A DNA stretch of 64,000 nt from assembly GCA_021166845.1 (NCBI GenBank), contig JAJPEP010000067.1, positions 1-64,000 of the forward strand, in the 5' to 3' direction. Position 1 is the first letter of the stretch. Each line of letters starts with the position of its first letter. This DNA comes from Thiobacillus sp. GTDB lineage: Bacteria > Pseudomonadota > Gammaproteobacteria > Burkholderiales > Thiobacillaceae. Made by a program: the position numbers and the translations under genes. A model generated the notes under the pieces. The model searched no databases, was not told the origin of the DNA, and saw nothing but the letters and a program-made list of their open reading frames with translations. Shown here piece by piece: positions 13,520 to 34,715 of the stretch.

Positions 13520-13521
13520 GC

Positions 13522-15629: not shown

Positions 15630-15896
15630 ATGCCACACTCGCTCAACCGACGCAACAACATTTCGGCTTCGACAACTGCCACGCCCCCCGAGCCTGATGA
15701 CATTCGTGCGGCCAGAACCGCAGCAGGTTTGACGCAAACGGAAGCCGGTGCCGTGGTGCATGCATCGTTGCGCACTTGGCAGCAGTGGGAGGCAGGGGAT
15801 CGCAAGATGCACCCTGGACTGTTTGAGCTATTCACGCTCAAGACCGCACGAGAAAATCGCAAGCAACAAGCCAGCGACAGAAACAACCAGGAGTAA
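15630..15896 (+). CDS. XRE-like HTH regulator upstream of the integrase
   Basis: This 88-residue protein has one helix-turn-helix of the Cro/C1 type in its centre (DIRAARTAAGLTQTEAGAVV, then SLRTWQQWEAGDRKMHPGLF) and a charged C-terminal tail. It has the size of phage repressors and antitoxin-type regulators, but no toxin gene is adjacent. It lies 13 bp before the integrase and about 70 bp after a promoter carrying a palindromic operator. It probably represses its own transcript and hence integrase expression. The N-terminal 20 residues look disordered, and the ATG at 15630 has no strong ribosome binding site. Confidence 0.78.
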   Translation: MPHSLNRRNNISASTTATPPEPDDIRAARTAAGLTQTEAGAVVHASLRTWQQWEAGDRKMHPGLFELFTLKTARENRKQQASDRNNQE

Positions 15897-15909
15897 TTTC
15901 GGGAGAGTA

Positions 15910-17160
15910 ATGATGGCGGCGCAAATGGATACCGTGATAAGCAGCAACCTTCCAGGCATCGAAGTGCATGGAAAGTCGATTCGCGTGGTGTTCATGCACA
16001 AGGGAGTGCGCCATCGCCACACGCTGGGTATCGAGCCAACCAAGGCAAACCTGAAACATGCGTCTCGCCTTCGCAGCGCCGCCATGTATGCGCTCAAGAC
16101 GGGGACCTACAACGAGGCTGAGTTTTTCCCCCATTCGAGGCAAGGCGACCAAGCCGGCACGGCAGGCAAACGTCTCGGCGATCTGTACGAACGGTACATG
16201 CCGCTCAAGGCCGTGGACATCACTTCCGAAACACAGAATCGCTACGAGGTAGCACTGAACTCCTGCTTGAACACCATCGGCAGGGACCGGCTTGCCGATG
16301 CGCTTATTCCTGCCGACATCCAACAGTTGCGAGTCGATCTGATCGAGACGCGCGCAGTTTCGACAGTGAATCACTACCTCGCAACATTCGCGGGCTTTCT
16401 CTACTGGTGCGAGCAGAACCACTTCTGCGCTGAAGGCTTGGCCAAGAACTGCACGCGCTTCACCAAGAGCAACAAGGACCCGGACCCGTTCACTTATCAG
16501 GAGTACAACGCGCTAATCACGAAGGGTTGCCTGCACCCAATGGACGCGGCCTCGGTGACACTCGCGTTCTACACAGGCCTGCGGCCGGGCGAGTTGTGTG
16601 GGCTCGCTGTGGAGGACATTGCCACCGATCTGAGCAAGCTGACGGTGAGGCGCTCAGTCACACAGTCGCTGACCTTCAAGATTCCGAAGACGAACAAGGA
16701 ACGTACCATCCTGCTGTTCCCGCCGGCACAAGCTGCACTCAAAGTCCTAATCGAAGATGCACTGACGCGCGATGCGATGGACTTGGAAGTCTGGCTGAAT
16801 CGTCATGAGTCTCGCGTTGATCGCGCCCGGCTGTTGTTGTCGCCGAAGACGCAGGCACGCAAGACCGACGTAAACGCGTGGTACGTGCCAAGCGCATGGA
16901 ACACCAAATGGGCCAACTTGACCAGGCGCGCCGAGGTACGGCATCGCCCGCCTTATCAGACCCGCCACACCTACGCCTGCTGGAACCTCACCGCACGGGG
17001 TAATCTTGCCTTCATCGCCAACCAGATGGGGCACAGTGACTATTCGATGCTCGTGAAGGTCTATGGTCGCTGGATAGATTCGGAGTCCCCCAGAGAGCTG
17101 GGGCGCATCTGGCAGGGCATGAAAAAACTCGTTCAAATTGCCCCAAATTTGCCCCAATAA
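15910..17160 (+). CDS. int: Tyrosine recombinase / ICE integrase
   Basis: This site-specific recombinase is 416 residues long. The ATG pair at 15910/15913 follows GGGAGAG; the track start at 15748 lies within the HTH gene. It has an N-terminal arm-binding domain (GIEVHGKSIRVVFMHKGVRH), a SAM-like core-binding domain (about residues 85-180) and the catalytic domain. Active-site residues seen are Arg225 (YTGLRPGEL), the box II YQTRH with Arg352, the MGHSDYSM box and nucleophile Tyr385 (KVYGRW). All are intact, so the enzyme is probably active. Its 3' end carries a repeated TTGCCCCAA. It ends 32 bp before mutS, which marks the att region. Confidence 0.93.
   Translation: MMAAQMDTVISSNLPGIEVHGKSIRVVFMHKGVRHRHTLGIEPTKANLKHASRLRSAAMYALKTGTYNEAEFFPHSRQGDQAGTAGKRLGDLYERYMPLKAVDITSETQNRYEVALNSCLNTIGRDRLADALIPADIQQLRVDLIETRAVSTVNHYLATFAGFLYWCEQNHFCAEGLAKNCTRFTKSNKDPDPFTYQEYNALITKGCLHPMDAASVTLAFYTGLRPGELCGLAVEDIATDLSKLTVRRSVTQSLTFKIPKTNKERTILLFPPAQAALKVLIEDALTRDAMDLEVWLNRHESRVDRARLLLSPKTQARKTDVNAWYVPSAWNTKWANLTRRAEVRHRPPYQTRHTYACWNLTARGNLAFIANQMGHSDYSMLVKVYGRWIDSESPRELGRIWQGMKKLVQIAPNLPQ
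17138..17158 (+). repeat. Direct repeat TTGCCCCAA x2 at the integrase 3' end
   Basis: TTGCCCCAA occurs at 17138-17146 and again at 17150-17158, a 12-bp period, in the last codons of the integrase and right before the putative att junction. Short direct repeats near an element end are typical integrase arm-type sites. No binding evidence is available. Confidence 0.5.
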
Positions 17161-19773: not shown

Positions 19774-20046
19774 ATGATGAAAACGCTACGCCTCGACACA
19801 GCCGAACTGGGCATCGACTTCAATGCCGCGTTGAAACTGGCGACGGCCATCGCCCGGCAGCAGCTGGGCGACGACGCCATGTTGCTGAGCTGGCACGACC
19901 GCGAGCGCGATCTCGAATCGCCGGCGGGGGTGAGCGAATGTCACGAAGGCTGCGCCACCAAGGGATCGTGGGACTATGCGAAGAACCGCGGGGCGCGGCT
20001 GGCGGTGGCGTTCGATGACGGGCGGTTTACGTTCTGCTTCCTGTAA
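19774..20046 (+). CDS. Small conserved protein, AF1514/DUF5619-like
   Basis: This 90-residue soluble protein contains a conserved central block LSWHDRERDLESPAG then SECHEGCATKGSWDYAKNRGARL, with two cysteines in a CxxxC arrangement. It resembles the AF1514 (DUF5619) family of small, uncharacterised proteins. The CxxxC plus nearby histidines could bind a metal, but this is conjecture. It follows mutS by 34 bp in the same direction. Two start methionines are adjacent (19774, 19777). No specific function can be given. Confidence 0.65.
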   Translation: MMKTLRLDTAELGIDFNAALKLATAIARQQLGDDAMLLSWHDRERDLESPAGVSECHEGCATKGSWDYAKNRGARLAVAFDDGRFTFCFL

Positions 20047-20225
20047 GGGCGGCCCCCGATCGGACTCCCGCACCCGATGGGATTGCGGTAAGGTTCTTAT
20101 TGCCGATCTTGACGAAAAAACACTGGCCATGTGCGGGTGGTGCGCAGCATCCCCGCATCGCTACGCTTGATCCCCCCAACTGTTCCCGGTAGTTTACCGG
20201 CACCCCGTATCGATAAGATCGCCTG

Positions 20226-22166
20226 ATGGTCACCCTCACTCAAAAGCTTGGCGCCAAGATCGTCAACATCCTGATCTTTTTCTTTTTCGTTGCGCTCGCC
20301 GCGATCGGCATGACCCTCTATATTTCCTGGCAACTGGAAGGCGCCGGCGCGGCGATCAACGATGCCGGCAGCGCGCGCATGCGCTCCTACCGCATCGCCT
20401 ACCTGCTGTCGCAAAGCACCCATGAAAACACCGACACCGCCGTGATCGAGGCCCAAATCCTCAAGGAAATCGGTTTGTTCGAATCCACCCTGCGCACACT
20501 GGAAGAAGGCAATCAGGCGCGGCCGCTGTTCCTGCCTAAGGAGCAGGAAGTGCGACGGCAAATGAAGCTTCTGCACCAGGAATGGGAGGAACGGATGAAG
20601 CCGCTGATCCTTGAAATCATGAACAGCGAAAGGGCGGCAGGCCAATTGACGCTCATTACCGCCTACCAGCCGGCGCTGGTGAATTTCGTCAGCATGGTGA
20701 ACCATCTTGTGCTGATGGTGGAGGAAAGCAATACCCGCAACACCGCCCTGCTGCGCTCATTCCAGATCAGCCTGGTGGTGCTGTCGATGGTCGGCACCCT
20801 CGTTCTGATCTATCTGTTCTTCGTGATGGTGATCCGGCCGGTGACCAAGCTGCAGGACGGCATTCAGCGCATGGCGGCAGCCGATTTCAGCGTGCGCCTG
20901 CCGGTGCAAAGCCAGGATGAATTCGGCGCGCTCGCCGACGGCTTCAACCAGATGGCGGACCGGCTGCAAAATCTTTATGGCACGCTGGAAGAACGGGTGC
21001 AGGAAAAAACCAGGAGCCTTGAAGACAAAAACCAGGAACTGGCAATATTGTATGAATTCGCTGCCTTCCTCAACAAACCGGCCTCGGTGGAAGACCTGTG
21101 CCGCGGCGTGCTGAAGAAGCTGATTGGCGTCCTTGCAGCGCAGGGCGGGCTGGTGCGTCTGGTGGCGCCGAATTCGAATGCCCTGCATATCATCATTCAT
21201 GAAGGGGTGTCGGAGGCATTCGCCAAGGAGGAGGCATGCCTGACCCTGGGCGAATGCCTCTGCGGCGAATCGGCTCGGGATGGCACACCGATATCTTGGG
21301 ACCTGAATATCGAAACGCCGCGTCCAACATTGCAACGTTGCAGGCGCGACGGATTCCAGTCGGTTTCCGCCATCCCGATCCGTTCCAAGAAGCAGGTGCT
21401 GGGCATCTTCAACCTTTTCTTCCACAAGCCACAAGTATTCGACAGCCATGAAATCCTGCTGCTCGAAACCATCGGACAGCACCTCGGCATCGCAATCGAG
21501 AACCAGCGCCTGGTTTCGCGAGAGAAGGAAATGGCGGTGTCGGAGGAACGCAATCTGATCGCGCAGGAACTGCACGACAGCATCGCCCAGTCTCTCGCCT
21601 TCCTGAACATTCAGGTGCAGATGCTGGCGGACTCGCTCCATCGCGGCAACGACACCGAGGCCATGGAAGGCCTGGCGCAGATTCGCGAGGGGGTGCAGGA
21701 AAGCTATGACGTCGTGCGCGAGTTGCTGGTGCACTTCCGCACCCGGGTGGAACATGCCGACCTGGCTGGCGCAGTCGCCAGCGCGCTGGAAAAATTCGAG
21801 GGCCAGACCGGGATCAAGACCAGCTTCCGGCAGCGTGGCGGCGGCGCGCCCCTGGAACCGGAATATGTGATCCAGTTGCTGCACATCATCCAGGAAGCCC
21901 TGTCCAATGTACGCAAACACGCCCAGGCTACGCAGGTTGACGTTGACATCGAGCAAAATGAGGAATATCGCATTGTCGTCACCGACAACGGCCGGGGATT
22001 CGACTCCAGCCCGAAACCCGGCGTCGATGAAGAACAGCATGTCGGACTCAAGATCATGAAGGAAAGAGCCCACCGCATCGGCGCGCAGCTGACGATTGCC
22101 TCCCGGCAGGGGGAAGGCACGCGCGTATCCCTGACGCTCACCAAACAACCCAAAGGAACGGCATGA
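20226..22166 (+). CDS. narX: Nitrate/nitrite sensor histidine kinase NarX
   Basis: This membrane-bound sensor kinase has 646 residues. An N-terminal transmembrane helix (about 12-34) is followed by a periplasmic helical bundle with the nitrate-binding P-box-like segment NDAGSARMRSYRIAYLL. A second membrane helix (about 178-200), HAMP (MVIRPVTKLQDGIQRM), coiled linker and GAF-type domain (about 270-420) come next. The HisKA_3 dimerisation domain with His450 (AQELHDSIAQSL) and an HATPase domain (EALSNVRKHA, DNGRGF) complete it. It overlaps narL by 4 bp and lies upstream of the nar transport and reductase genes it should regulate. The 179 bp before it show no clear promoter. Confidence 0.93.
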   Translation: MVTLTQKLGAKIVNILIFFFFVALAAIGMTLYISWQLEGAGAAINDAGSARMRSYRIAYLLSQSTHENTDTAVIEAQILKEIGLFESTLRTLEEGNQARPLFLPKEQEVRRQMKLLHQEWEERMKPLILEIMNSERAAGQLTLITAYQPALVNFVSMVNHLVLMVEESNTRNTALLRSFQISLVVLSMVGTLVLIYLFFVMVIRPVTKLQDGIQRMAAADFSVRLPVQSQDEFGALADGFNQMADRLQNLYGTLEERVQEKTRSLEDKNQELAILYEFAAFLNKPASVEDLCRGVLKKLIGVLAAQGGLVRLVAPNSNALHIIIHEGVSEAFAKEEACLTLGECLCGESARDGTPISWDLNIETPRPTLQRCRRDGFQSVSAIPIRSKKQVLGIFNLFFHKPQVFDSHEILLLETIGQHLGIAIENQRLVSREKEMAVSEERNLIAQELHDSIAQSLAFLNIQVQMLADSLHRGNDTEAMEGLAQIREGVQESYDVVRELLVHFRTRVEHADLAGAVASALEKFEGQTGIKTSFRQRGGGAPLEPEYVIQLLHIIQEALSNVRKHAQATQVDVDIEQNEEYRIVVTDNGRGFDSSPKPGVDEEQHVGLKIMKERAHRIGAQLTIASRQGEGTRVSLTLTKQPKGTA

Positions 22167-22822
22167 GCCACCCGATTCGCATATTGATCGTCGACGACCA
22201 CACCCTGTTCAGGAGCGGCATCAAGGCGCTGCTGCAACGGCAGGACGATTTCGAGGTGGTGGGCGAGGCCGGCGACGGCCTGGAGGGACTGAAACGCGCC
22301 AAATCCCTCCAGCCCGACGTGGTGCTGCTCGACCTGCACATGCCGGGCATCGGCGGGCGCGAAGCGGTCAAGCTGCTGTCCGAGGAAGTGCCGGCATGCA
22401 ACGTGCTGCTGCTGACCGTATCGGAAGACGCCGAAGACCTGATCGAAACGATCCGCGCCGGCGCCCGCGGCTATTTGCTGAAGAACATCGAGACCGATTT
22501 TCTGCTGAACGCCATTCGCTCCGCCGCGCGCGGTGAGTCGGTGGTGTCGCCGCAGATGACCGGCAAGCTGATGATGGGCGTCCGCATGGGCAAGGAAGGC
22601 GTCGCCCAGGAGGACGACAGGGAAAAACTCAGCCCGCGCGAAAAGGACATCATCGCCCTGCTCGCCAAGGGCGTAAGCAACAAGGAAATGGCGCACACCC
22701 TCAACGTGGCGGAGAGCACCATCAAGATCCACGTTCAGAACATTCTCAAGAAGCTACACCTCACCAGCCGGGTGCAGGCGGCGGTCTATGCCGTGGAACA
22801 CGGCCTCGTGCAGAAGGACTGA
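22163..22822 (+). CDS. narL: Nitrate-responsive response regulator NarL
   Basis: This 219-residue NarL/FixJ-type response regulator has a receiver domain with acidic pocket Asp11/Asp12 (LIVDDHTLF), phosphoacceptor Asp57 (VVLLDLHMPG) and the conserved Lys in GYLLKNIE. The C-terminal LuxR-type HTH is LSPREKDIIALLAKGVSNKE...ESTIKIHVQNILKKL. It is translationally coupled to narX (ATGA), its expected kinase. By analogy with E. coli NarL it would bind TACYYMT heptamers near the nar promoters. One such heptamer lies in the narL-narK1 gap. Confidence 0.93.
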   Translation: MSHPIRILIVDDHTLFRSGIKALLQRQDDFEVVGEAGDGLEGLKRAKSLQPDVVLLDLHMPGIGGREAVKLLSEEVPACNVLLLTVSEDAEDLIETIRAGARGYLLKNIETDFLLNAIRSAARGESVVSPQMTGKLMMGVRMGKEGVAQEDDREKLSPREKDIIALLAKGVSNKEMAHTLNVAESTIKIHVQNILKKLHLTSRVQAAVYAVEHGLVQKD

Positions 22823-22924
22823 AACCGGACACCGGCTTTCTGGCACATTGCATCATGGCGCGCATCCCCTGCCCACCCGCCGGACGACCCTCCAGTCCCG
22901 GCCCAACCGGACCCATCCCCCAAA

Positions 22925-22931
22925 AGGAGTA
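22925..22931 (-). promoter_or_regulatory. Possible NarL heptamer upstream of narK1
   Basis: AGGAGTA on the + strand is the reverse complement of TACTCCT and fits the NarL heptamer TACYYMT. It lies about 160 bp before narK1 in the 266-bp gap after narL. It is a single site and a 7-base degenerate motif, so it could be chance. I did not find a convincing FNR box (TTGAT-N4-ATCAA) in the same gap. Confidence 0.25.
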
Positions 22932-23088
22932 TCCCGCCCGGCCTAAATAACTAGACGCGCCAGCCAGATGGCGGAGCGGGCAATTGTTCTTTTTATCCCG
23001 CAAAATCGGCAGTCCTGCCTATATGTCACAGCGCGGTAAGAAATTATCCTTCCCACCAATGATTTAACCAAACCAGTGGGAGGACAGC

Positions 23089-24351
23089 ATGGCTACGCAG
23101 CAATACAAGGCATGGTCCGTGGTGACGGCAAGCACGATTGCGTTCACCGTCTGTTTCATGATCTGGATGATGTTTGCCGTGATCGGCATTCCCATCAAGA
23201 AAATGCTCGACCTCAACGAGACCCAGTTCGGTCTCCTGGTGGCGATGCCGGTGCTCACCGGCTCCCTGATCCGGCTGCCGCTGGGGATGTGGACCGACAA
23301 ATTCGGCGGACGCATCGTGTTTTTCATCCTGATGCTGTCCACCGTCATCCCGATCTGGATGATTTCCCACGCCACCGAGTACTGGCATTTCCTCTTTACC
23401 AGCCTGTTCGTCGGCGTTGCAGGCGGCTCGTTCACCGTGGGCATCGCCTACTGCGCGCGCTGGTTCCCCAAGGAACGCCAGGGCCTGGCCATGGGCATTT
23501 TCGGCGCCGGCAACACCGGCGCGGCGGTGACCAAGCTGGTGGCTCCGCTCATTGTGGTGGGCTACGGCTGGACGATGGTGCCGAAGGTTTATGCGGTCTT
23601 GATGCTGGTTACCGCCATCCTGTTCTGGTTCTTTACCTTCTCCGACCCCGGCCACAAGGTGGGCAAGAGCGTCACCATTCGCGAGCAGCTCGCCGCCTTC
23701 AAGGACCCCAAGGTATGGAAATTGAGCCAGTACTATTCCATCGTGTTCGGCGGTTACGTTGCCCTGGCGCTGTGGATGACCAAGTACTACGTTTCCGAAT
23801 ACGGCTTCGATCTCAAGACCGCCGCCTTGCTGGCCGCGGCCTTCAGCATTCCGGGCGGCGTGCTGCGCGCGATCGGCGGCCACTTCTCCGACAAGTTCGG
23901 CGCCCACACCATTACCTGGTGGGTGCTGTGGGTGTCGCTGGCTTGCCTGTTCTTCCTGTCCTACCCGCAGACCGAATTCACCATCCATACCGTGACCGGC
24001 CCTGCCACATTCCACGTGGGGCTCGGCCCCACCGCCTTCACCATCATCATGTTCACCCTGGGTATCGCCTTTGCAATCGGCAAGGCGTCGGTCTTCAAGT
24101 ACATTTCCGACGATTACCCCAAAAACATCGGCGTGATCTCCGGCGTGGTGGGACTGGCGGGCGGTCTGGGCGGCTTCTTCATGCCGATCATGTTCGGCGC
24201 GCTGGTCGACCTGACGGGCATCCGCTCCTCCGCCTTCATGCTGATGTTCGGCATCGTATGGGTGTCCCTGATGTGGATGTACTGGACCGAGGTCAGGCCG
24301 CTTGACCGGGTGCGCTATAAGAAGCCCCAAGCACTGGATACGCCGGAATAA
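23089..24351 (+). CDS. narK1: MFS nitrate/nitrite transporter NarK1
   Basis: This is a twelve-helix major facilitator superfamily nitrate transporter of 420 residues in the inner membrane. The nitrate-porter signatures are visible: GVAGGSFTVGIAYCARWFPK in helix 4-5 and the second half motif GVVGLAGGLGGFFMPIMFG. A conserved cytoplasmic-loop motif follows helix 2 (RLPLGMWTDKFGGR). GTGGGAGGACAGC precedes the ATG. It is the first of two tandem NarK homologues; in denitrifiers the shorter NarK1 type is usually assigned nitrate/proton symport, which starts nitrate uptake. That division of labour is inferred, not shown. Confidence 0.9.
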   Translation: MATQQYKAWSVVTASTIAFTVCFMIWMMFAVIGIPIKKMLDLNETQFGLLVAMPVLTGSLIRLPLGMWTDKFGGRIVFFILMLSTVIPIWMISHATEYWHFLFTSLFVGVAGGSFTVGIAYCARWFPKERQGLAMGIFGAGNTGAAVTKLVAPLIVVGYGWTMVPKVYAVLMLVTAILFWFFTFSDPGHKVGKSVTIREQLAAFKDPKVWKLSQYYSIVFGGYVALALWMTKYYVSEYGFDLKTAALLAAAFSIPGGVLRAIGGHFSDKFGAHTITWWVLWVSLACLFFLSYPQTEFTIHTVTGPATFHVGLGPTAFTIIMFTLGIAFAIGKASVFKYISDDYPKNIGVISGVVGLAGGLGGFFMPIMFGALVDLTGIRSSAFMLMFGIVWVSLMWMYWTEVRPLDRVRYKKPQALDTPE

Positions 24352-24386
24352 GCAGCACTTTTAAATAATCTAAGGAGGTTTGAGAA

Positions 24387-25994
24387 ATGTCGATCAACAT
24401 CAAGGAATGGGATGTGGAGAACCAGAAGTTCTGGGAAGCCACCGGCAAGAAAATTGCCAACCGCAACCTGTGGATTTCCATCCCCAGCCTTCTGCTTGGC
24501 TTCGCCATCTGGCTGATGTGGGGCATCATCACGGTGCAGATGCTGAACCTGGGCTTCCCGTTCGAGCCTGACCAGCTGTTCACCCTGACCGCCATCGCCG
24601 GCCTGGCGGGCGCCACCCTGAGGATCCCCGCTTCATTCTTCATCCGTATCGCCGGCGGCCGCAACACCATTTTCCTGACCACTGCGCTGCTGATGATTCC
24701 AGCCATCGGCACCGGCCTCGCCCTTCAGGACAAAACCACGCCGCTGTGGGTGTTCCAGCTGATGGCGCTGCTGTCCGGCATTGGCGGCGGCAACTTCGCC
24801 TGCTCGATGTCCAACATCAGCACCTTCTTCCCGAAACGCCTGCAGGGCACGGCGCTCGGCCTCAACGCCGGCCTCGGCAACTTCGGCGTCACCACCATGC
24901 AGGTCCTGATCCCGCTGGTGATGACCGCCGGCATATTCGGTGCGCTGGGGGGCGAACCGATGACCCTGATCAAGGACAGCGGCTGGATTCTCGGCAAGAT
25001 CCTGGCCGGCACGCCCACCTATATCCAGAACGCCGGCTTTGTCTGGCTGCTGGCGCTGGTGCCGCTGGCCTTCCTCGGCTTCTTCGGCATGAACAACCTG
25101 ATGCCGATTTCTCCCAACATCGGCTCGACGATCTCCGCCTTCATCAAGATCCTGTGGCTCTACGGCCTGGCTTTCGTGACCGCCGGCGTGGGCCTGTACC
25201 TGTACCTCCCGGCGCCGACCGGCCTGGGCCTGTTGAACATGTGGGTGGCCTTGCCCCTGATCATGGTCGGCACGCTGTTCGTGATGAAGCTCGCTGCGTT
25301 CGGCGAAATGAAGGCGAACATCGCCAAGCAATTCGCCATCTTCAGCAACAAGCACACCTGGTCCATGACCGTGCTGTATGTGCTGACCTTCGGTTCGTTC
25401 ATCGGCTTCTCGATGGCCCTGCCCCTTGCCATCACGGTGATCTTCGGCTTCCAGCATGAGCTTGTGGACGGCGTGATGACCCACACCACCAAAAACCCCA
25501 ACGCCGTGTCGGCACTCACCTACGCCTGGATCGGCCCCTTCGTCGGCGCGCTGATCCGCCCGGTGGGCGGCTGGATTTCCGACAAGGTGGGCGGTTCCAT
25601 CGTGACCCAGCTGATTTCCGTCGTCATGGTGGTGGCCTCCGCGGCAACCGGCTACGTGATGTTCCTGGCCTACAACTCCGCCACGCCTGAACAGTATTTC
25701 GTGATCTTCATGGTGCTGTTCGTGGTGCTGTTCGCCGCTTCCGGCATCGGCAACGGATCGACCTTCCGCACCGTGGGCGTGATCTTCGACCGCGTGCAGG
25801 CAGGCCCGGTGCTGGGCTGGACTTCCGCCGTGGCGGCTTACGGTTCCTTCATCGCCCCGGTCGTGATCGGCGCGCAGATCAAGGCCGGCACCCCGCAAAA
25901 CGCGATGTACGGCTTCGCCATATTTTATGCCCTGTGTCTGATCCTGAACTGGTGGTTCTACCTGCGGCCAGGTTCTGAAATCAAGAATCCGTGA
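24387..25994 (+). CDS. narK2: MFS nitrate/nitrite antiporter NarK2
   Basis: This second NarK homologue has 535 residues, with signatures ALLSGIGGGNFACSMSNIS and LQGTALGLNAGLGNFGV. It is about 115 residues longer than NarK1 next to it; the extra length lies mainly in longer loops around GGEPMTLIKDSGWILGK and between later helices. NarK2-type proteins exchange nitrate in for nitrite out during steady respiration. The start has a near-consensus TAAGGAGG ribosome binding site. It is 35 bp after narK1 and 59 bp before narG, so probably part of one transcript. Confidence 0.9.
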   Translation: MSINIKEWDVENQKFWEATGKKIANRNLWISIPSLLLGFAIWLMWGIITVQMLNLGFPFEPDQLFTLTAIAGLAGATLRIPASFFIRIAGGRNTIFLTTALLMIPAIGTGLALQDKTTPLWVFQLMALLSGIGGGNFACSMSNISTFFPKRLQGTALGLNAGLGNFGVTTMQVLIPLVMTAGIFGALGGEPMTLIKDSGWILGKILAGTPTYIQNAGFVWLLALVPLAFLGFFGMNNLMPISPNIGSTISAFIKILWLYGLAFVTAGVGLYLYLPAPTGLGLLNMWVALPLIMVGTLFVMKLAAFGEMKANIAKQFAIFSNKHTWSMTVLYVLTFGSFIGFSMALPLAITVIFGFQHELVDGVMTHTTKNPNAVSALTYAWIGPFVGALIRPVGGWISDKVGGSIVTQLISVVMVVASAATGYVMFLAYNSATPEQYFVIFMVLFVVLFAASGIGNGSTFRTVGVIFDRVQAGPVLGWTSAVAAYGSFIAPVVIGAQIKAGTPQNAMYGFAIFYALCLILNWWFYLRPGSEIKNP

Positions 25995-26053
25995 CACCCG
26001 AAACATCCGTGAATGAAACAGCGCAATCGAATTAACACGATAGGAATTATGAA

Positions 26054-29000
26054 ATGAGCCACTTTCTCGACCGTTTGAAGTTTTTCGAAAAAACCAAGGA
26101 GACCTTCTCCGACAACCATGGCATCGTCACCAACGAAGACCGTCAGTGGGAAGATGCCTACCGTCATCGCTGGGCGCATGACAAGGTGGTTCGCTCCACG
26201 CACGGCGTGAACTGCACCGGTGGCTGTTCGTGGAAAATTTTCGTCAAGAACGGCCTGGTTGCGTTCGAAATGCAGCAAACCGACTACCCGCGCACCCGCG
26301 AAGACCTGCCGGACCACGAACCGCGCGGCTGCCAGCGCGGCGCGTCCTTCTCCTGGTATCTGTACAGCCCGCAGCGCATCAAGTACCCGCTGATCCGCGG
26401 CCGCCTGCTTGATCTGTACCGCACCGAGCGCAAGTCCGGCAAGGATCCGGTCGAGGCATGGGCCGCGATTCAGGCGGACGAAAACAAGCGCAAGAAATAC
26501 ACCGCCGTGCGCGGCCTGGGCGGCTTCGTGCGCGCCGACTGGGAAGAAGTGAAGGAAATCGTTGCCGCCGCCAACGTCCATACCGTCAAGAAATACGGTC
26601 CTGACCGCATTTTTGGTTTCTCGCCCATTCCGGCGATGTCGCAGATTTCCTACGCCTCGGGCGCGCGCTATCTGTCGCTGATCGGCGGCGCCTGCGGTTC
26701 CTTCTACGACTGGTATTGCGACCTTCCGGCCGCGTCCCCCCAGACCTGGGGCGAGCAGACCGACGTACCGGAATCGGCCGACTGGTACAACTCCACCTAC
26801 ATCATCGTCTGCGGCTCCAGCCTGCCGACCACGCGCACGCCGGATGCCCACTTCGTATCCGAGGTGCGCTACAAGGGCGCCAAGGTCATCTCGATGGCGC
26901 CCGACTACGCCGAGTACTGCAAGGCATCCGACCTGTGGATGCCGGTCAATCCGGGTACCGATACCGCCGCCTTCCTGGCGATGGGGCACGTCGCGCTGAA
27001 AGAGTTCTACATCGACAAGCAGGACCCCTATTTCTCGGAATACGCCCGCAAGTACACCGACCTGCCGATCCAGGTGATGCTGCGCAAGCATGGCGAAGGC
27101 TATGTGTCCGACCGCTGCCTGCGCGCATCCGACCTGGACGGCGCCCTGGGCGAGACCAACAATCCCGACTGGAAAACCATCATTTACGATGAGAAATCCA
27201 GGTCCTTTGTCGTGCCGAACGGCTCGATCGGCTTCCGTTGGGGCGAAGAAGGCAAGTGGAACCTGCTACCCAAGAACGCCGCCAGCCAGCAGGAAATATC
27301 GGCCGAACTGTCGTGTATCGACAGCAAGGATGCCGTGGTCTCGGTCGGCTTCCCGCACTTCGAGCCGGGTGAAGGCGATCTGCTGTACCGCAACGTGCCC
27401 GCGCGCAAGCTGAAACTGGCCAACGGCGAGGAAATCCTGGTCACCTCCGTGTTCGACATGCAGATCGCGCAGTACGGCATCGACCGTGGTCTGGGCGGCG
27501 CCAATGTCGCCAGGGACTACCAGGATGCCAGCGTGGCCTATACGCCTGCCTGGGCCGAGAAAGTCACCGGCGTCAAAGCTGCCGACATCGAGCGCACCGG
27601 CCGCGAGTTCGCCTACAACGCATCCAGGACCAACGGCAAATCGATGGTGATCATGGGCGCCGCGATCAACCACTGGTACCACAACGACATGATGTACCGC
27701 GGCGTGATGAACCTGCTGCACATCTGCGGTTGCGTGGGTCAATCCGGCGGCGGCTGGGCCCACTACGTGGGTCAGGAAAAACTGCGTCCGCAGGCCGGCT
27801 GGGCGCCGATCGCCTTCGCGCTCGACTGGCAGCGTCCGCCGCGCCACATGAACTCCACCTCCTACTGGTATTTCCACACCGATCAGTGGCGTTACGAAAC
27901 CCTGCGCGGCGACGACCTCACCTCGCCTGCCGGCAAGGGCAAGTACAAGGGCTATTCGCTGGCCGACTACAACGTCGCCGCGGTCCGCATGGGCTGGCTG
28001 CCGTCCGCGCCGCACTGGAACACTAACCCGCTCGACCTGGTTTCCGAGGCCGAGAAGGCCGGCGCCACCGACGAGGCAGGCATCGCCAAGCACGTGATCG
28101 GCAAGCTCAAGGACGGCTCGCTGGATGTGGCATTCGCCGATCCGGACGCTCCGGAAAACTGGCCGCGCAATCTGTTCGTCTGGCGCGCCAACCTGATCGG
28201 CACCTCCGCCAAGGGCCATGAGTATTTCCTCAAGCACCTGCTCGGCGCACAGAACGGCGTGCTGCAGGAATCCGGCGCCGGAAGCGAAAACAAGCTGGTC
28301 AAATGGCACGACGAAGCGCCGATCGGCAAGCTGGACCTGATGGTCGACATCAACTTCCGCCTGAATTCCACCGGCGCCTACTCCGACATCATCCTGCCGA
28401 CCGCGACCTGGTACGAGAAGAACGACCTCAATACCACCGACATGCATCCCTTCATGCATCCGCTGTCCGAGGCGGTATCGCCGGGCTGGCAGTCCATGTC
28501 CGACTGGCAGATCTTCAAGAATATCGCCAAGACCTTCTCGACGCTGGCCGAAAAACACCTCGGCACCCGCAAGGACATCATCGCCCTGCCGATGCAGCAT
28601 GATTCCCCGTTCGAAATGGCCCAGCCCTTCGGCGAGGTCAAGGACTGGAAAAAAGGCGAGTGCGATCCGATCCCCGGCAAGACCATGCCGCTGCTCAAGG
28701 TGGTCGAGCGCAACTTTGCCGATACCTACAAGAAGTACATCGCCATCGGCCCGCTGATGGTCAAGATCGGCAACAACGTCAAGGGCATCGACTGGAACAC
28801 CGAGGAAGAGTACGAGCAGCTCAAGGTGATGAACGGTGCGGTGAAGGTGCCGGGCGTATCCTTTGGCATGCCGTCGCTGGAAGAGGACATCTTCGTCTGC
28901 GATTCGGTGATGCGCATGGCGCCGGAGACCTGCGGCGAAGTCGCGCACAAGTCCTGGACCGCGCTGTCGAAGAAGACCGGCATCGACCACCACCACCTGT

Positions 29001-29809
29001 ACTCGGCCCGTCACGAGGACAAGATTACCTTCCGCGATATCCAGGTGCAGCCGCGCAAGATCATCACCGCGCCGACCTGGTCCGGGATCGAGTCGGAAAC
29101 GGTGTCCTACACCTCGTGCTACACCAATATCCACGAGCACATTCCGTTCCGCACCCTGACCGGCCGCGCCCATTTCTACCAGGATCACGAGTGGATGCTG
29201 GACTTCGGCGAAGGCTTCTGCGTGCACAAACCGCCGCAGGACATGAAGTCGTTCGGCAAACTCTCGCCGAGCATCCTGGCGGAGAAGCACATCAAGCTGA
29301 AATGGATCACGCCGCACTCCAAGTGGGGCATCCATTCGAGCTACCAGGACAACCTGCGCATGCGGACCTTGTTCCGCGGCGGCCCCTATGTGTGGATCTC
29401 CGAAGTCGACGCCAAGGCGGCCGGCATCGAGGACAACGACTGGGTCGAAGCGATCAACGCCAACGGCGCGACGGTTGCGCGTGCGGTCGTCTCGCAGCGC
29501 GTATCGCGCGGCGTGGCCATGATGTACCACGCCCAGGAGAAGATCGTGAACGTGCCCGGTTCGAATACCACCGGCAAGCGCGGCGGCATCCTGAATTCGG
29601 TGACGCGCGTCGTCATCAAGCCGACCAACATGATCGGCGGTTATGTGCAGCTGGCCTACAGCTTCAACTATTACGGCACGGTGGGCAGCAACCGCGATAC
29701 CGAGATCATCATGCGCAAGGTGGCGGACAAGGACATCGACTGGCTGGAGCGCCCGCTTACCCCGGAACGCGAAGCGCAGCTCAACCCGCCCGGAATCGGC
29801 AAGCGTTGA
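26054..29809 (+). CDS. narG: Respiratory nitrate reductase alpha subunit NarG
   Basis: NarG is the membrane-associated cytoplasmic catalytic subunit that reduces nitrate to nitrite at a Mo-bis-MGD centre, 1251 residues. The FS0 [4Fe-4S] ligands fall at His50, Cys54, Cys58 and Cys93 (RSTHGVNCTGGCSWK, RGCQRG), the same numbers as in E. coli NarG. The molybdenum-ligand region is SFYDWYCDLP near residue 220. The N-terminal tail (MSHFLDRLKFF) matches the NarG tail that contacts NarI. It is the first gene of narGHJI, 35 bp before narH, with AGGAATT ahead of the ATG. A 754-aa antisense ORF here is a codon-bias shadow. Confidence 0.97.
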   Translation: MSHFLDRLKFFEKTKETFSDNHGIVTNEDRQWEDAYRHRWAHDKVVRSTHGVNCTGGCSWKIFVKNGLVAFEMQQTDYPRTREDLPDHEPRGCQRGASFSWYLYSPQRIKYPLIRGRLLDLYRTERKSGKDPVEAWAAIQADENKRKKYTAVRGLGGFVRADWEEVKEIVAAANVHTVKKYGPDRIFGFSPIPAMSQISYASGARYLSLIGGACGSFYDWYCDLPAASPQTWGEQTDVPESADWYNSTYIIVCGSSLPTTRTPDAHFVSEVRYKGAKVISMAPDYAEYCKASDLWMPVNPGTDTAAFLAMGHVALKEFYIDKQDPYFSEYARKYTDLPIQVMLRKHGEGYVSDRCLRASDLDGALGETNNPDWKTIIYDEKSRSFVVPNGSIGFRWGEEGKWNLLPKNAASQQEISAELSCIDSKDAVVSVGFPHFEPGEGDLLYRNVPARKLKLANGEEILVTSVFDMQIAQYGIDRGLGGANVARDYQDASVAYTPAWAEKVTGVKAADIERTGREFAYNASRTNGKSMVIMGAAINHWYHNDMMYRGVMNLLHICGCVGQSGGGWAHYVGQEKLRPQAGWAPIAFALDWQRPPRHMNSTSYWYFHTDQWRYETLRGDDLTSPAGKGKYKGYSLADYNVAAVRMGWLPSAPHWNTNPLDLVSEAEKAGATDEAGIAKHVIGKLKDGSLDVAFADPDAPENWPRNLFVWRANLIGTSAKGHEYFLKHLLGAQNGVLQESGAGSENKLVKWHDEAPIGKLDLMVDINFRLNSTGAYSDIILPTATWYEKNDLNTTDMHPFMHPLSEAVSPGWQSMSDWQIFKNIAKTFSTLAEKHLGTRKDIIALPMQHDSPFEMAQPFGEVKDWKKGECDPIPGKTMPLLKVVERNFADTYKKYIAIGPLMVKIGNNVKGIDWNTEEEYEQLKVMNGAVKVPGVSFGMPSLEEDIFVCDSVMRMAPETCGEVAHKSWTALSKKTGIDHHHLYSARHEDKITFRDIQVQPRKIITAPTWSGIESETVSYTSCYTNIHEHIPFRTLTGRAHFYQDHEWMLDFGEGFCVHKPPQDMKSFGKLSPSILAEKHIKLKWITPHSKWGIHSSYQDNLRMRTLFRGGPYVWISEVDAKAAGIEDNDWVEAINANGATVARAVVSQRVSRGVAMMYHAQEKIVNVPGSNTTGKRGGILNSVTRVVIKPTNMIGGYVQLAYSFNYYGTVGSNRDTEIIMRKVADKDIDWLERPLTPEREAQLNPPGIGKR

Positions 29810-29844
29810 TCGTCGCGTGAACAGGATAAATTAGGAGAAACCCA

Positions 29845-31392
29845 ATGAAAGTACGTGCACAATTCGCATTCGTCTTCAACCTGGACAAATGCATCGGTTG
29901 CCACACCTGCTCGGTGACGTGCAAGAACACCTGGACCAACCGCAAGGGCGTGGAATACGTCTGGTTCAACAACGTCGAATCCAAGCCCGGTATCGGCTAT
30001 CCCAAGCAGTGGGAGAACCAGGAGAAATGGAAAGGCGGCTGGATGCTCAATGGCGGCAAGCTGGAGCTGAAATCCGGCGGGCGCATGTCGAAGCTGCTGA
30101 ACATCTTCGCCAACCCGGACCTGCCGCAGATCGACGACTACTACGAGCCGTTCACCTACAACTACGCGCGCCTGCAGAACGCGCCGCTGTCCGAGGCGGC
30201 GCCGACCGCACGGCCGCTGTCGATGATCACCGGCGACCCCATGGAGAAAATCACCTGGGGCCCGAACTGGGAAGACGACCTCGCCGGCGAATTCTCCAAG
30301 CGCAGCGTGGACAAGAACCTGGACAACATCCAGAAGGACATGCTCGGCCAGTTCGAAAACACCTTCAACCTCTACCTGCCGCGCATCTGCAACCACTGCC
30401 TGAACCCGGCCTGCGTCGCGGCCTGCCCCTCCGGCTCGCTCTACAAGCGCGAGGAAGACGGCAGCGTACTGGTCGACCAGGACAAGTGCCGCGGCTGGCG
30501 CTTCTGCATGAGCGCCTGCCCGTACAAGAAGGTGTTCTACAACTGGGAATCCGGCAAAGCCGAGAAGTGCATCGCCTGCTACCCGCGCGTCGAATCCGGC
30601 ATGCCGACGGTGTGCTCGGAATCCTGCGTCGGCCGCATCCGCTACAACGGCATCATGCTGTATGACGCGGACAGGATCGAAGCCCTGGCCAGCACGCAGA
30701 ACGAGCAGGACCTGTACGAAGCGCAGTGCAGCATCTTCCTCGACCCCAACGACCCGGCCGTGATCGCCGCGGCACGGGCCGAGGGCATCAACGAAGACTG
30801 GATCATCGCAGCGCAGAAATCACCGATCTACAAAATGGCGATCGACTGGAAAATCGCCTTCCCGCTGCACCCGGAATTCCGCACCCTGCCGATGGTGTGG
30901 TACGTGCCGCCGCTTTCCCCGGTGCAGTCCCAGATCGACCAGGGCAACCTGCCGGTCGGCCCGGATGGCGCCATTCCCCTGGCCAGCGCGATGCGCACGC
31001 CGACCAAGTACCTGGCCAACCTGTTCACCGCAGGCAAGGAAGAGCCGATTCGCAGCTCCCTGAACCGCCTGATCGCCATGCGCAGCTACCAGCGCTCGGT
31101 GCACGTCGAAGGCGTCGCGGACACGCGCGCCCTGGAGGCGGCCGGGATCACGGAAGATCAAGCCAAGGAAATGTACCGTTACCTGGCGATCGCCAACTAC
31201 GAAGACCGCTACGTCATCCCCACCGGCCATGAGGAAGAGCGGATGGACGATGCCTACGGCTTCCAGGGCCAGAACGGCTTCACCTTCGGCAACAACTCTT
31301 CGGCAGGCATCAGCAAGGTCACCCTGTTCCCGCGTCGCCGCAAGGAAACGCTGGAACCCGCCGAACTGGCGCCGTCCGCAGACAAAAGCTGA
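29845..31392 (+). CDS. narH: Respiratory nitrate reductase beta subunit NarH
   Basis: NarH carries the iron-sulfur wire from NarI to NarG, 515 residues. Four cysteine clusters are visible: CIGCHTCSVTCK, CNHCLNPACVAACP, CRGWRFCMSACP and CIACYPR...CSESC. The third has Trp where a cysteine would be, the mark of the [3Fe-4S] cluster in NarH. The C-terminal part (LPMVWYVPPLSPVQSQ, EMYRYLAIANYEDR) matches the family throughout. TTAGGAGAAACCC precedes the start. Confidence 0.97.
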   Translation: MKVRAQFAFVFNLDKCIGCHTCSVTCKNTWTNRKGVEYVWFNNVESKPGIGYPKQWENQEKWKGGWMLNGGKLELKSGGRMSKLLNIFANPDLPQIDDYYEPFTYNYARLQNAPLSEAAPTARPLSMITGDPMEKITWGPNWEDDLAGEFSKRSVDKNLDNIQKDMLGQFENTFNLYLPRICNHCLNPACVAACPSGSLYKREEDGSVLVDQDKCRGWRFCMSACPYKKVFYNWESGKAEKCIACYPRVESGMPTVCSESCVGRIRYNGIMLYDADRIEALASTQNEQDLYEAQCSIFLDPNDPAVIAAARAEGINEDWIIAAQKSPIYKMAIDWKIAFPLHPEFRTLPMVWYVPPLSPVQSQIDQGNLPVGPDGAIPLASAMRTPTKYLANLFTAGKEEPIRSSLNRLIAMRSYQRSVHVEGVADTRALEAAGITEDQAKEMYRYLAIANYEDRYVIPTGHEEERMDDAYGFQGQNGFTFGNNSSAGISKVTLFPRRRKETLEPAELAPSADKS

Positions 31393-31403
31393 GAAGGAAC
31401 ATC

Positions 31404-31928
31404 ATGTCCATCTACAAAATACTGTCGGCATTGCTGGATTACCCGGACCAGGCGTTGATCGACCATCTGCCGGAAATCCGCGATGAAATCGGGAAAAGCC
31501 AGGATATCGACACGGCGGAAAAGGAATCCATGCGGAAGCTGCTTGATCACCTGGCCAATACGCCGCTGATCGATCTGCAGGAAGATTACGTGAAGACGTT
31601 CGATCTGACGCCGGAGCACAGTCTGCATCTGACCCACCATCTGTTCGGCGACGACAACGACAGGAATCGCGGCCCGGCGCTGATCGACCTCGGCGAGCTG
31701 TACAAGGATTACGGCATCACGGTGGCGAGCAACGAGCTGCCCGACTTTCTGCCGCTGGTCCTGGAATTCGCCGCCATGCTGGAAGACAACGAGGCAACAA
31801 CTTTCCTGTCCGACGCCAACAAGGTGCTGACGGTGCTGACCGACAATCTGACCAAGGCAGGCACCCCCTATGCGCCCCTGCTTTCCATCGTTAAAAGCCG
31901 CGCCACGCTCACCCGTCTGGCCGCTTAA
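31404..31928 (+). CDS. narJ: Nitrate reductase assembly chaperone NarJ (short form)
   Basis: NarJ is a TorD-like chaperone that binds the NarG N-terminus and oversees cofactor insertion and membrane docking. It is not part of the final enzyme. The all-helical start (YKILSALLDYPDQALIDHLP) and the middle motif (SNELPDFLPLVLEFAAMLED) are typical. At 174 residues it ends about 60 residues earlier than E. coli NarJ (236) and lacks that C-terminal region. There is no frameshift remnant: narI follows 11 bp later with its own TAAGGAGG. Confidence 0.9.
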   Translation: MSIYKILSALLDYPDQALIDHLPEIRDEIGKSQDIDTAEKESMRKLLDHLANTPLIDLQEDYVKTFDLTPEHSLHLTHHLFGDDNDRNRGPALIDLGELYKDYGITVASNELPDFLPLVLEFAAMLEDNEATTFLSDANKVLTVLTDNLTKAGTPYAPLLSIVKSRATLTRLAA

Positions 31929-31939
31929 GGAGGTATGAA

Positions 31940-32650
31940 ATGAACGAATCTATGTATAGCTGGAACAACCTGATTTTTGGTTTTTACCCTTATATCGCCC
32001 TGAGCGTGTTCGTGATCGGCAGCTGGATCCGCTTCGACCGCGAGCAATACGGCTGGACCAGCGCGTCCAGCCAGTTGCTCTCCACGGCGGGTATGCGCCT
32101 GTCCAGCAACCTGTTCCACATCGGCGTCATCGGCATCTTCTTCGGCCACCTGGTCGGCCTGCTGGCGCCCTACGCCATCTGGGGCACCATCGGCCTGTCC
32201 TCGCTCGGCAAGCAGAACATCGCCATGTACGGCGGCGGCTTCCTCGGTATCCTGTGCATGATCGGCGGCGCGATGCTGATGTGGCGCCGCATGACCAACC
32301 CGCGTGTGCGGGCGACCAGCCGTACGTCGGATATTTTCATCCTGGCCTGGGTGCTGATTACCCTGGGTTTCGGCCTGGCCACCACCTTCACCACCGCGCA
32401 CCACGCCGCGCAGGGCAGTGCCGACACCATGATGGCGCTCGCGCAGTGGGCCAAAAGCATCGTGCTGTTCAGTCCGAAGCCGGAACTGGTGGGCAGCGTC
32501 GAAATGGTGTTCCGCATCCACCTGTTCTTCGGCCTGTCGCTGTTCCTGCTGTTCCCGTTCACCCGTCTGGTGCACATCTGGAGCTTCCCGATCGGTTATC
32601 TGACGCGTTCCTACCAGATCGTGCGCACCAAGCGCCGCATCGCGCAGTAA
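31940..32650 (+). CDS. narI: Respiratory nitrate reductase gamma subunit NarI
   Basis: NarI is the dihaem cytochrome b membrane anchor and quinol oxidase of the nitrate reductase complex, 236 residues. Five transmembrane helices are visible. Histidines placed to ligate the two b haems include NLFHIGVIGIFFGHLVG in helix 2 and EMVFRIHLFFGLSLF with TRLVHIWSFP in the last helix. A strong ribosome binding site (TAAGGAGGTATGAA) precedes the ATG. It ends the structural nar operon; a GC-rich hairpin follows 16 bp after the stop. Confidence 0.96.
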   Translation: MNESMYSWNNLIFGFYPYIALSVFVIGSWIRFDREQYGWTSASSQLLSTAGMRLSSNLFHIGVIGIFFGHLVGLLAPYAIWGTIGLSSLGKQNIAMYGGGFLGILCMIGGAMLMWRRMTNPRVRATSRTSDIFILAWVLITLGFGLATTFTTAHHAAQGSADTMMALAQWAKSIVLFSPKPELVGSVEMVFRIHLFFGLSLFLLFPFTRLVHIWSFPIGYLTRSYQIVRTKRRIAQ

Positions 32651-32665
32651 CCCATCCGCTGAACC

Positions 32666-32697
32666 GGGCGCCGCCACTCCTTCGGGTGGCAGCGCCC
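32666..32697 (+). terminator. GC-rich hairpin after narI (possible terminator)
   Basis: GGGCGC-C-GCCAC pairs with GTGGC-A-GCGCCC around a TCCTTCGG loop, giving 11 base pairs with one internal C/A mismatch. It is followed by TCCCACTTTT, a weak T-run only. It lies between narI and the cytochrome c gene, so it may end or attenuate the nar transcript or protect its 3' end. Confidence 0.55.
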
Positions 32698-32773
32698 TCC
32701 CACTTTTGTCGTATCGTCATGACCGATCCCAGCACCCGTAAAGACCTCACCCGGGTCCAAAAAGGGAGCCCGC

Positions 32774-33178
32774 ATGTTACATAAGCTTGGCTGGCTCATC
32801 CTGGTGGTCGCGGTCGGTATCGGCGTGCACTTCGCGTTGCAAAACATCATCCAGAGCGGCGATCCGGAAAAGCGGCGAGGCCCGGACCTGGCCAAAGTGG
32901 AACGACTGGAAACCGCCGACCCCGTTCGCGGCGCCAAGGTACGTGCCGGCATGGTCAAGTACGAATCCATCTGCCGCCTGTGCCACCACCGCACCGGCCA
33001 GGGAGGCAAGTTCACGCCGCCCATTGCCGGCCTGACCGCAGAACGGGTCGAATTGATGCTGAAGCTGTACCGCAGCGGCGCCCACGTGGGGCCGATGACC
33101 AATCTGATGGCGCCGTGGGCAGCCGAGCTGTCCGACGAAGACATCGGCAACCTGGCAGCGTACGTAGAAACCTTATAA
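32774..33178 (+). CDS. Membrane-anchored monohaem cytochrome c
   Basis: This 134-residue protein has an uncleaved N-terminal anchor or signal (LGWLILVVAVGIGVHFAL) and one c-type haem motif, CRLCH, near residue 73. Candidate distal Met ligands lie in HVGPMTNLMAPW. The C-terminal helix (LSDEDIGNLAAYVETL) is typical of small class I cytochromes. AAAGGGAGCCC precedes the ATG. It follows narI and precedes an exported PilJ-domain gene by 10 bp, so the two are probably cotranscribed. A role in electron transfer linked to nitrate or nitrite respiration is inferred from position only. Confidence 0.87.
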   Translation: MLHKLGWLILVVAVGIGVHFALQNIIQSGDPEKRRGPDLAKVERLETADPVRGAKVRAGMVKYESICRLCHHRTGQGGKFTPPIAGLTAERVELMLKLYRSGAHVGPMTNLMAPWAAELSDEDIGNLAAYVETL

Positions 33179-33188
33179 GGAAAATATT

Positions 33189-34040
33189 GTGCCGAATCTC
33201 TTGCGTAGAGGTTTCCTGGTCCGCAGCGTGGTCCTGTTCGCAGCGTCTGTCGTTCCGACACAGCCTGCCCGGGCCGCCGCCATCACCAATCTCAACGAGG
33301 CCATCAACAAGGCTGGTCGCATACGCATGTTGTCGCAACGTATGGCCAAGGCCTATTGCCAGATTGGCCTGAACATCCTAACCGACAAGTCACGCCACAT
33401 CCTGGAGGTGTCCGTCAATCTCTACCAGGAACACCTGAAAGAACTCAAGGCCTTTGCCCCGTCGGCGGATATAAAAGCCATCTACGCGGATCTGGATGCC
33501 AACTGGCAACTCTACCGCCAGCTCCTGAGCGGAACGCCCAGCCTGAACAACGCGCGACTCATTGCAAAAATCAACGAGGATGCTTTGCGTGTAGCCCACT
33601 TGGGCACGACACAATTCGAGCTCTCATCCCCTACCAGCGTGGGCCGTCTGATCAATATCTCCGGCCGACAGCGCATGCTGTCGCAACGCCTGGCCAAGTT
33701 TTACATGTTCCGACAGTGGGGGATCAGCACCCCGGGCATGGACGCCGAGATGCAGATCGCCAAACGCGAATTCGTTAGCGCCCTGAATGCATTGGATCAT
33801 GCTCCCGAAAACACCGGCAAGATCAATGGCGAATTGAGCATGGCCCGTACCCAGTGGATTTTCTTCGAGAATGCCCTGCAAGAACAGAATGTCGGCAAAA
33901 AGAATCCACATTACGCCACCAATGTGGCCACCACTAGCGAACGCATTCTCGAAATGATGGATCGTGTTACCGAGCTTTATGGACAGCTGCCCGCTTCATC
34001 CCCCGTCGCAGCTCCTGCCACCCGGCCGGCACGACGCTGA
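33189..34040 (+). CDS. Exported protein with two PilJ/NarX-like sensory motifs
   Basis: This 283-residue protein has no kinase, HAMP or methyl-accepting domain. The N-terminal signal contains RRGFLV followed by a hydrophobic stretch and ARAAA, resembling a twin-arginine signal. The mature part has two copies of the PilJ N-terminal-domain signature: INKAGRIRMLSQRMAKAY near residue 40 and INISGRQRMLSQRLAKFY near residue 155. The same motif corresponds to the nitrate-binding P-box of NarX. It starts with GTG after AAGGA, 10 bp behind the cytochrome gene. It could be a periplasmic nitrate/nitrite-binding or signal-buffering protein for NarX; this is inference. Confidence 0.8.
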   Translation: MPNLLRRGFLVRSVVLFAASVVPTQPARAAAITNLNEAINKAGRIRMLSQRMAKAYCQIGLNILTDKSRHILEVSVNLYQEHLKELKAFAPSADIKAIYADLDANWQLYRQLLSGTPSLNNARLIAKINEDALRVAHLGTTQFELSSPTSVGRLINISGRQRMLSQRLAKFYMFRQWGISTPGMDAEMQIAKREFVSALNALDHAPENTGKINGELSMARTQWIFFENALQEQNVGKKNPHYATNVATTSERILEMMDRVTELYGQLPASSPVAAPATRPARR

Positions 34041-34412: not shown

Positions 34413-34715
34413 TTATGCGCCGCGCCGCCGCCACAGATAGCGATACACAAAGCCCGGATACGCGAACACCACGAACAGCGCAGCATTGACTGCGTAGAAC
34501 TCCCAATTCTGCTTGTGGACGTCGCCCCCCCTGCTTTCCAGCAGCAGCGCGATGCCGCCCACCACGAAAAACATCACGATCAATTCCAGCAACCGCCAGG
34601 CGAAATTCTTGCTGCCGCCCCTAGGCCGGATGACGAAGAAAATCCGCTCGACGAGGAACGGCAGGTTGGCGGCGATGAACGCCAGGATCAGCAGCAGGGT
34701 GGTGGAGAAATTCAC
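34413..34715 (-). CDS. DUF2818-family membrane protein
   Basis: This 100-residue inner-membrane protein has three hydrophobic helices (LLLILAFIAANLPFLVERI, LLELIVMFFVVGGIALLL and FYAVNAALFVVFAYPGFVY) and a basic end (YRYLWRRRGA). It matches DUF2818, a family found right after nuoN in Betaproteobacteria, which suggests a link to complex I assembly or stability, though none is established. The start is GTG at 34715, lying in a perfect 14-bp tandem duplication with no obvious Shine-Dalgarno sequence. Confidence 0.85.
   Translation of the reverse strand: MNFSTTLLLILAFIAANLPFLVERIFFVIRPRGGSKNFAWRLLELIVMFFVVGGIALLLESRGGDVHKQNWEFYAVNAALFVVFAYPGFVYRYLWRRRGA

Follow-up and report, generated by a model that had tools for sequence, protein, structure and literature searches.

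A predicted exported tandem-PilJ protein beside a nar cassette in Thiobacillus, and its recurrence in nar, nir and nas operons

The question raised by this locus is what a NarX-type sensory motif may do when it is exported in duplicate on a free-standing protein with no output of its own. The stretch of Thiobacillus sp. DNA analysed here (the window; 64,000 nucleotides) carries such a gene, labelled PilJ2 in this text, behind narGHJI. PilJ2 is an open reading frame of 283 amino acids with a GTG start and an AAGGAA ribosome-binding site 5´ of it, containing the motif copies INKAGRIRMLSQRMAK (residues 39-54) and INISGRQRMLSQRLAK (residues 155-170). Its features are the following:

33189..34040, + strand: PilJ2, predicted tandem-PilJ exported protein (open reading frame, homologues, alignment, AlphaFold2)
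33189..33281, + strand: predicted signal peptide, residues about 1-31, containing RRGFLV, Tat-like (sequence; pLDDT < 50 at residues 12-29)
33288..33623, + strand: predicted PilJ four-helix bundle 1, residues 34-145 (Pfam stretch 34-113; helices H35-60, H65-89, H93-113 and H119-145)
33303..33338, + strand: N-box 1, INKAGRIRMLSQ, residues 39-50, with G43 and R46 (alignment; equivalent of McpN G58/R61)
33636..33983, + strand: predicted PilJ four-helix bundle 2, residues 150-265 (second PF13675 stretch; helices H150-176, H182-203, H210-235 and H240-265)
33651..33686, + strand: N-box 2, INISGRQRMLSQ, residues 155-166, with G159 and R162 (alignment)

In Pfam, PilJ2 matches PF13675 (PilJ) in two stretches (E = 4.2e-20; 72.4 bits against a gathering score of 26.6), and apart from PilJ the search found no transmembrane signalling, kinase, HAMP, MCP, HisKA_3 or HATPase domain. 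There is no match to the Pfam NIT domain (PF08376) at E <= 1, and among the NCBIfam models only NarQ was hit, weakly (30 bits against a cut-off of 553). The earlier note had described a stand-alone exported protein with a duplicated NarX/PilJ motif and no output domain, and this description holds for the two motif copies, the two PilJ stretches, the signal peptide and the missing output alike. The presence of a 12-residue motif twice in PilJ2, kept in the homologues, is far beyond chance. When the two halves were compared by BLAST, the N-box region alone aligned (14/24 identical), so the duplication is probably ancient.

The leader of PilJ2, MPNLLRRGFLVRSVVLFAASVVPTQPARA, includes RRGFLV, and RRxFL-type leaders recur among its Thiobacillaceae homologues, which makes the Tat route proposed in the earlier note plausible as a prediction for the Thiobacillaceae clade only. 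Most of the nir-linked homologues carry Sec-type leaders instead, as do those of Ralstonia and Campylobacterota, and Tat export was rejected as a defining trait. Judging from these leaders, the conserved trait of the homologues is export, not its route.

The AlphaFold2 model of PilJ2, built from a 25-homologue alignment, has eight long helices arranged in the two four-helix bundles that the earlier note had suggested looking for (pLDDT 88, pTM 0.83), with low confidence at residues 12-29 and the C-terminal tail. A homologue from Sulfurovum, 33% identical, gave a model of similar quality (pLDDT 89, pTM 0.85). In a fold search of the PDB, each PilJ2 bundle matched McpN (prob 1.00, rmsd 2.1 Å), and by sequence profile the nearest PDB chains are the McpN ligand-binding domain (LBD; E = 2.4e-8), PilJ (4e-4) and NarQ (0.006). 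With the whole chain, Foldseek returned no significant E-value; the highest TM-score among the matches listed belonged to the NIT domain of NasR (TMq 0.58), and the Sulfurovum model matched NasR (4AKK) with prob 1.00, TMq 0.66 and rmsd 4.4 Å. A two-bundle, single-chain arrangement of the NIT type is thus present in both predicted models. The tandem PilJ receptor reached a TMq of just 0.24-0.28 as a whole-chain match.

The comparison with these known systems is informative in both directions. The McpN LBD (PDB 6GCV) shares the four-helix PilJ bundle and the N-box, its G58/R61 corresponding to G43/R46 and G159/R162 of PilJ2, but it is a single domain, obligately dimeric and anchored in a chemoreceptor, whereas PilJ2 carries both of its PilJ domains on a single soluble chain that is predicted to be exported. 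The sensor domains of NarX and NarQ share PF13675 and a P-box G-x-x-R site on the dimer axis; PilJ2 lacks their transmembrane helices, HAMP and kinase, and its motif is of the McpN-like RMLSQR rather than the NarX RMQSYR type. NasR NIT (PDB 4AKK) likewise has eight helices and two bundles in one chain, with arginines on helices 1 and 5; however, NasR is cytoplasmic with an ANTAR output, while PilJ2 is predicted to be exported, with neither ANTAR nor a PF08376 match. Both G-x-x-R motifs are kept in PilJ2, whereas one glycine is replaced in NasR (PMC8199190). Finally, the periplasmic region of the PilJ chemoreceptor (PDB 8WDF, 7ZJR) also has tandem PilJ domains, but these are stacked differently, do not conserve the N-box or bind nitrate, and belong to a membrane receptor with an output (PMC6381276).

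In McpN, one nitrate lies on the dimer axis, held by R61 of both chains, and binding is lost in R61A; the two-domain PilJ receptor has no N-box and does not bind nitrate (PMC6381276). The counterparts in NarQ are G47 and R50, and the site of NasR is asymmetric and contains both arginines (PMC8199190), R176 being carried by helix 5 of the eight NIT helices (PMC7496416). Nitrate binding is similar across NasR, McpN, NarX and NarQ (PMC7496416, PMC8199190). Compared with the strict McpN-type N-box, [IVL]-[ND]-x-A-G-x-Q-R-M-L-[ST]-Q (PMC6381276), each PilJ2 repeat has one mismatch (I45 for Q; S158 for A), and both G-x-x-R elements are present. R46 and R162 are invariant in 25/25 aligned homologues, including those of Campylobacterota, and in a wider set they are kept in 80/84 and 76/84 sequences, respectively. 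In the predicted model, helix 1 carries G43/R46 and helix 5 carries G159/R162, matching the helices of the NasR arginines, and PilJ2 is likely to form one nitrate/nitrite site within a single chain. For PilJ2, we infer ligand binding, site geometry and signalling via a partner.

The gene neighbourhood shows how the protein came to lie next to nar in this genome:

17184..19739, + strand: mutS, left flank of the common site (synteny)
20046..33157, + strand: nar cassette narXL-narK1K2-narGHJI-cytC, 13.1 kb (synteny break points; absent at the G093 site)
20355..20393, + strand: P-box of narX, INDAGSARMRSYR (sequence; context)
32774..33178, + strand: cytC, monohaem cytochrome c with a membrane anchor, closing the nar cassette (Pfam Cytochrome_CBB3; present in G103)
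34413..34715, - strand: gene of a 100-aa protein, with the nuo operon beyond it, right flank (synteny)

PilJ2 starts 10 bp after cytC and about 540 bp after narI, and narX (20226-22166), with a PilJ domain and P-box of its own, ends 11.0 kb from it; the order narGHJI, cytochrome c, PilJ2 given in the earlier note agrees with these coordinates. No sigma-70-like promoter emerged from a promoter scan, and terminator-like matches numbered 4, against 2.1 in shuffled sequences, too small a difference to be informative.

The site between mutS and position 34413 was found in three states (loci L009 and L177 compared). Both the cassette and PilJ2 are present in the window and in a separate metagenome-assembled genome (MAG), G081. 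In the sister genome G093 (L009), the order is mutS, the PilJ2 gene, the 100-aa protein gene and nuo, with no nar, and the nar cassette of the window sits exactly between mutS and PilJ2. Conversely, Thiobacillus G103 has the nar cassette and cytochrome, 91-100% identical at the protein level, with the same nuo flank, and PilJ2 is missing from its start codon on. Since G093 has the gene without the cassette and G103 the reverse, the two are gained or lost independently of each other here, and G103 indicates that PilJ2 is dispensable for nar. The nar link of PilJ2 in the window genome is therefore not ancestral, but due to cassette insertion or loss, and its membership of the nar operon in this lineage, which the earlier note had implied by placing it in the nar locus, was rejected on synteny.

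A site-specific integrase gene (window 15748-17160) ends 24 bp 5´ of mutS, with a TrbI-like conjugation gene farther upstream (13258-14796); together they probably mark the edge of an integrated mobile element beside the mutS-nuo site. The window genome also has a second narG, of a subtype unlike that in the window (G000 contig C23:19028-22702).

Is the association with nitrate metabolism then an accident of one locus? A MAG-based survey of 399 genomes of the order (Burkholderiales), the window genome itself being a MAG (86% complete, 6% contaminated), yielded PilJ2 matches in 56 genomes at E <= 1e-10. Twenty-two of the 58 genes examined, from ten families, are located within or next to a nar, nir (cd1) or nas operon. 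The nar-linked genes belong to families f1, f13, f49 and f21 (window, G081, G128, G355 and G223), and follow narI immediately in G128 and G223. Nine genes (f14 and f32) are linked to nir cd1, with the order nirS-nirF-nirDL-nirG-gene-nirH-nirJ-nirN in G147, and eight (f34, f21, f46, f48 and f20) to nas, with the order nrtABC-gene-narK-kinase/phosphatase-nirB-nasA in G182; the nas linkage of G223 is based on nrtA alone. The neighbours identified by NCBIfam/Pfam include NirDL, NirJ, NirN, NirB, a NasT-like ANTAR protein and a NasA-like protein. Furthermore, a homologue on an annotated GenBank plasmid adjoins nirBD and a molybdopterin oxidoreductase.

With narG, nirJ and nirB as markers, 20 genes were found no more than 10 kb from one of them, where 0.65 would be expected. 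At the level of whole genomes, nirJ is found in 62% of carriers and 17% of other genomes (p = 5e-10), and narG in 49% and 32% (p = 0.018), although related genomes among the samples mean that these statistics are not independent. Co-occurrence with nar genes, which the earlier note had proposed surveying, is thus significant, and so is linkage. Mapped on the tree, each of the labels nar, nir and nas requires about three changes (five for the three together), which argues for repeated recruitment. All 22/22 linked genes retain both G-x-x-R motifs, compared with 23/36 of those outside such operons (p = 9e-4), so that no copy with degenerate motifs is among the genes linked to nar, nir or nas.

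These data bear on the possibility that the ligand of PilJ2 is a protein or some other small molecule, the N-box being a structural signature of PilJ bundles and the proximity to nar an accident of cassette insertion. Some PilJ domains indeed do not bind nitrate (PMC6381276), orthologues within the same family adjoin aspS, metC or nuo, and gene and cassette vary independently at the mutS-nuo site. We nevertheless regard this explanation as very improbable, given the linkages to nar, nir and nas seen independently across ten families and the G-x-x-R motifs kept in every linked copy. The same recurrent placement and intact motifs make a nitrate/nitrite-binding role for PilJ2 a well-supported prediction, in agreement with the periplasmic binder suggested by the earlier note, to which the G-x-x-R pair, McpN as the closest PDB relative and the NasR-like fold also point.

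A recurrent cytochrome c neighbour was considered as a functional clue and found to be weak (7/96 near genes vs 9/363 farther). In addition, the window genome encodes a second exported tandem-PilJ protein (L058:6923-7747, G000 contig C34), 33% identical and with both N-boxes intact, whose gene adjoins msrA and thrC, not nar.

The presence of narX in the same locus suggested that PilJ2 could be a dedicated co-receptor, a soluble tandem sensor pairing with the periplasmic domain of NarX to shift its nitrate response. A NarX-like kinase (E <= 1e-60) is encoded in 25/45 carrier genomes. At that threshold it is missing from at least five genomes with linked genes, G161, G182, G232, G397 and G446 (probably also G308 and G472), so NarX is not the general partner of PilJ2, and the specific tie to NarX drawn in the earlier note is not supported. 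Moreover, no link to NarX is seen for the relatives in Ralstonia and Campylobacterota, and G093 keeps PilJ2 without the nar cassette; the co-receptor role is accordingly quite unlikely.

No dedicated partner gene recurs among the operons examined, as would also be expected if PilJ2 were a passive periplasmic buffer or scavenger, lowering free nitrite or holding substrate near NirS or NarK with no partner at all. A free-standing, exported protein without an output domain would suit this role, and so would host operons that differ in their regulators (NarXL, NasT or none), with the ligand as the sole common item. NarX-type sites report their ligand through helix movement rather than storing it, which counts against such a buffer. 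Furthermore, millimolar anions would demand very high protein levels, and recruitment into three distinct operons suits sensing at least equally well. Passive buffering is thus judged rather unlikely.

The nar, nir and nas operons have little in common beyond periplasmic nitrate/nitrite, so the most natural reading of an exported NarX-type site with no output is a soluble receptor. We consider PilJ2, with somewhat better than even confidence, to recognise nitrate and/or nitrite as a free-standing exported receptor, built as an internal pseudo-dimer and acting on a protein partner. Counting against this are the 36/58 genes outside nar, nir and nas operons (23 of these 36 with intact motifs), the PilJ domains that do not bind nitrate, the mismatch in each N-box, the nar cassette of G103 that does without the gene, and the failure of any dedicated partner gene to recur. 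In this mechanism, the fused PilJ domains would form the pseudo-dimer, with the P-box helices presenting R46 and R162 to one oxyanion, much as two NarX, NarQ or McpN protomers, or helices 1 and 5 of NasR NIT, would do. The ligand would lock both bundles together and alter their surface. The liganded protein would then most likely act on a partner on the periplasmic side. That partner may be an enzyme or transporter of N-oxides, or else a sensor of N-oxides in the membrane, namely NarX in genomes that have it and other receptors in the rest; the activity of the operon would thereby track periplasmic nitrate/nitrite. Of the possible uses of PilJ2, signalling via a partner is the likeliest.

The PilJ domain is already known; what is new, within the literature searched, is its free-standing, tandem and exported form together with the operon pattern, no stand-alone or tandem PilJ protein in N-oxide operons being described there (subscription papers and preprints fell outside the search). 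To our knowledge, the nitrate receptors with a fold of this type are all part of kinases, chemoreceptors or antiterminators. It is conceivable, at a little short of even confidence, that PilJ2 represents a widespread class of secreted single-chain nitrate/nitrite receptors, made of fused NarX/McpN half-sites, recruited separately into nar, nir and nas operons and serving varied partners. If so, the periplasm would gain a soluble signal for N-oxyanions that different partners could exploit, and the PilJ and NIT sensor families would be linked as dimer and fused dimer, with PilJ2 as a candidate missing link between the two domains. In practical terms, PilJ2 should be a soluble protein that is easy to express, and one in which each half-site of a NarX-type sensor could be mutated on its own, which is impossible in a homodimer.

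Related proteins were also met in other arrangements. In Ralstonia, the gene directly 5´ of the tandem-PilJ gene (L018:7175-7906) encodes a small protein that combines a single PilJ domain with a partial MCP signalling domain and has no obvious signal peptide. In the nas operons of family f34, the tandem-PilJ gene is followed by that of a 315-aa protein with weak dCache similarity (L117:1248-2192 and L118:7134-8084). Finally, in Sulfurovum a run of three genes for exported PilJ-type proteins precedes a gene for a NIT-domain membrane protein (L026:7929-11581; PF08376, E = 1.1e-5), and these PilJ-type proteins and the NIT membrane protein are possible partners.
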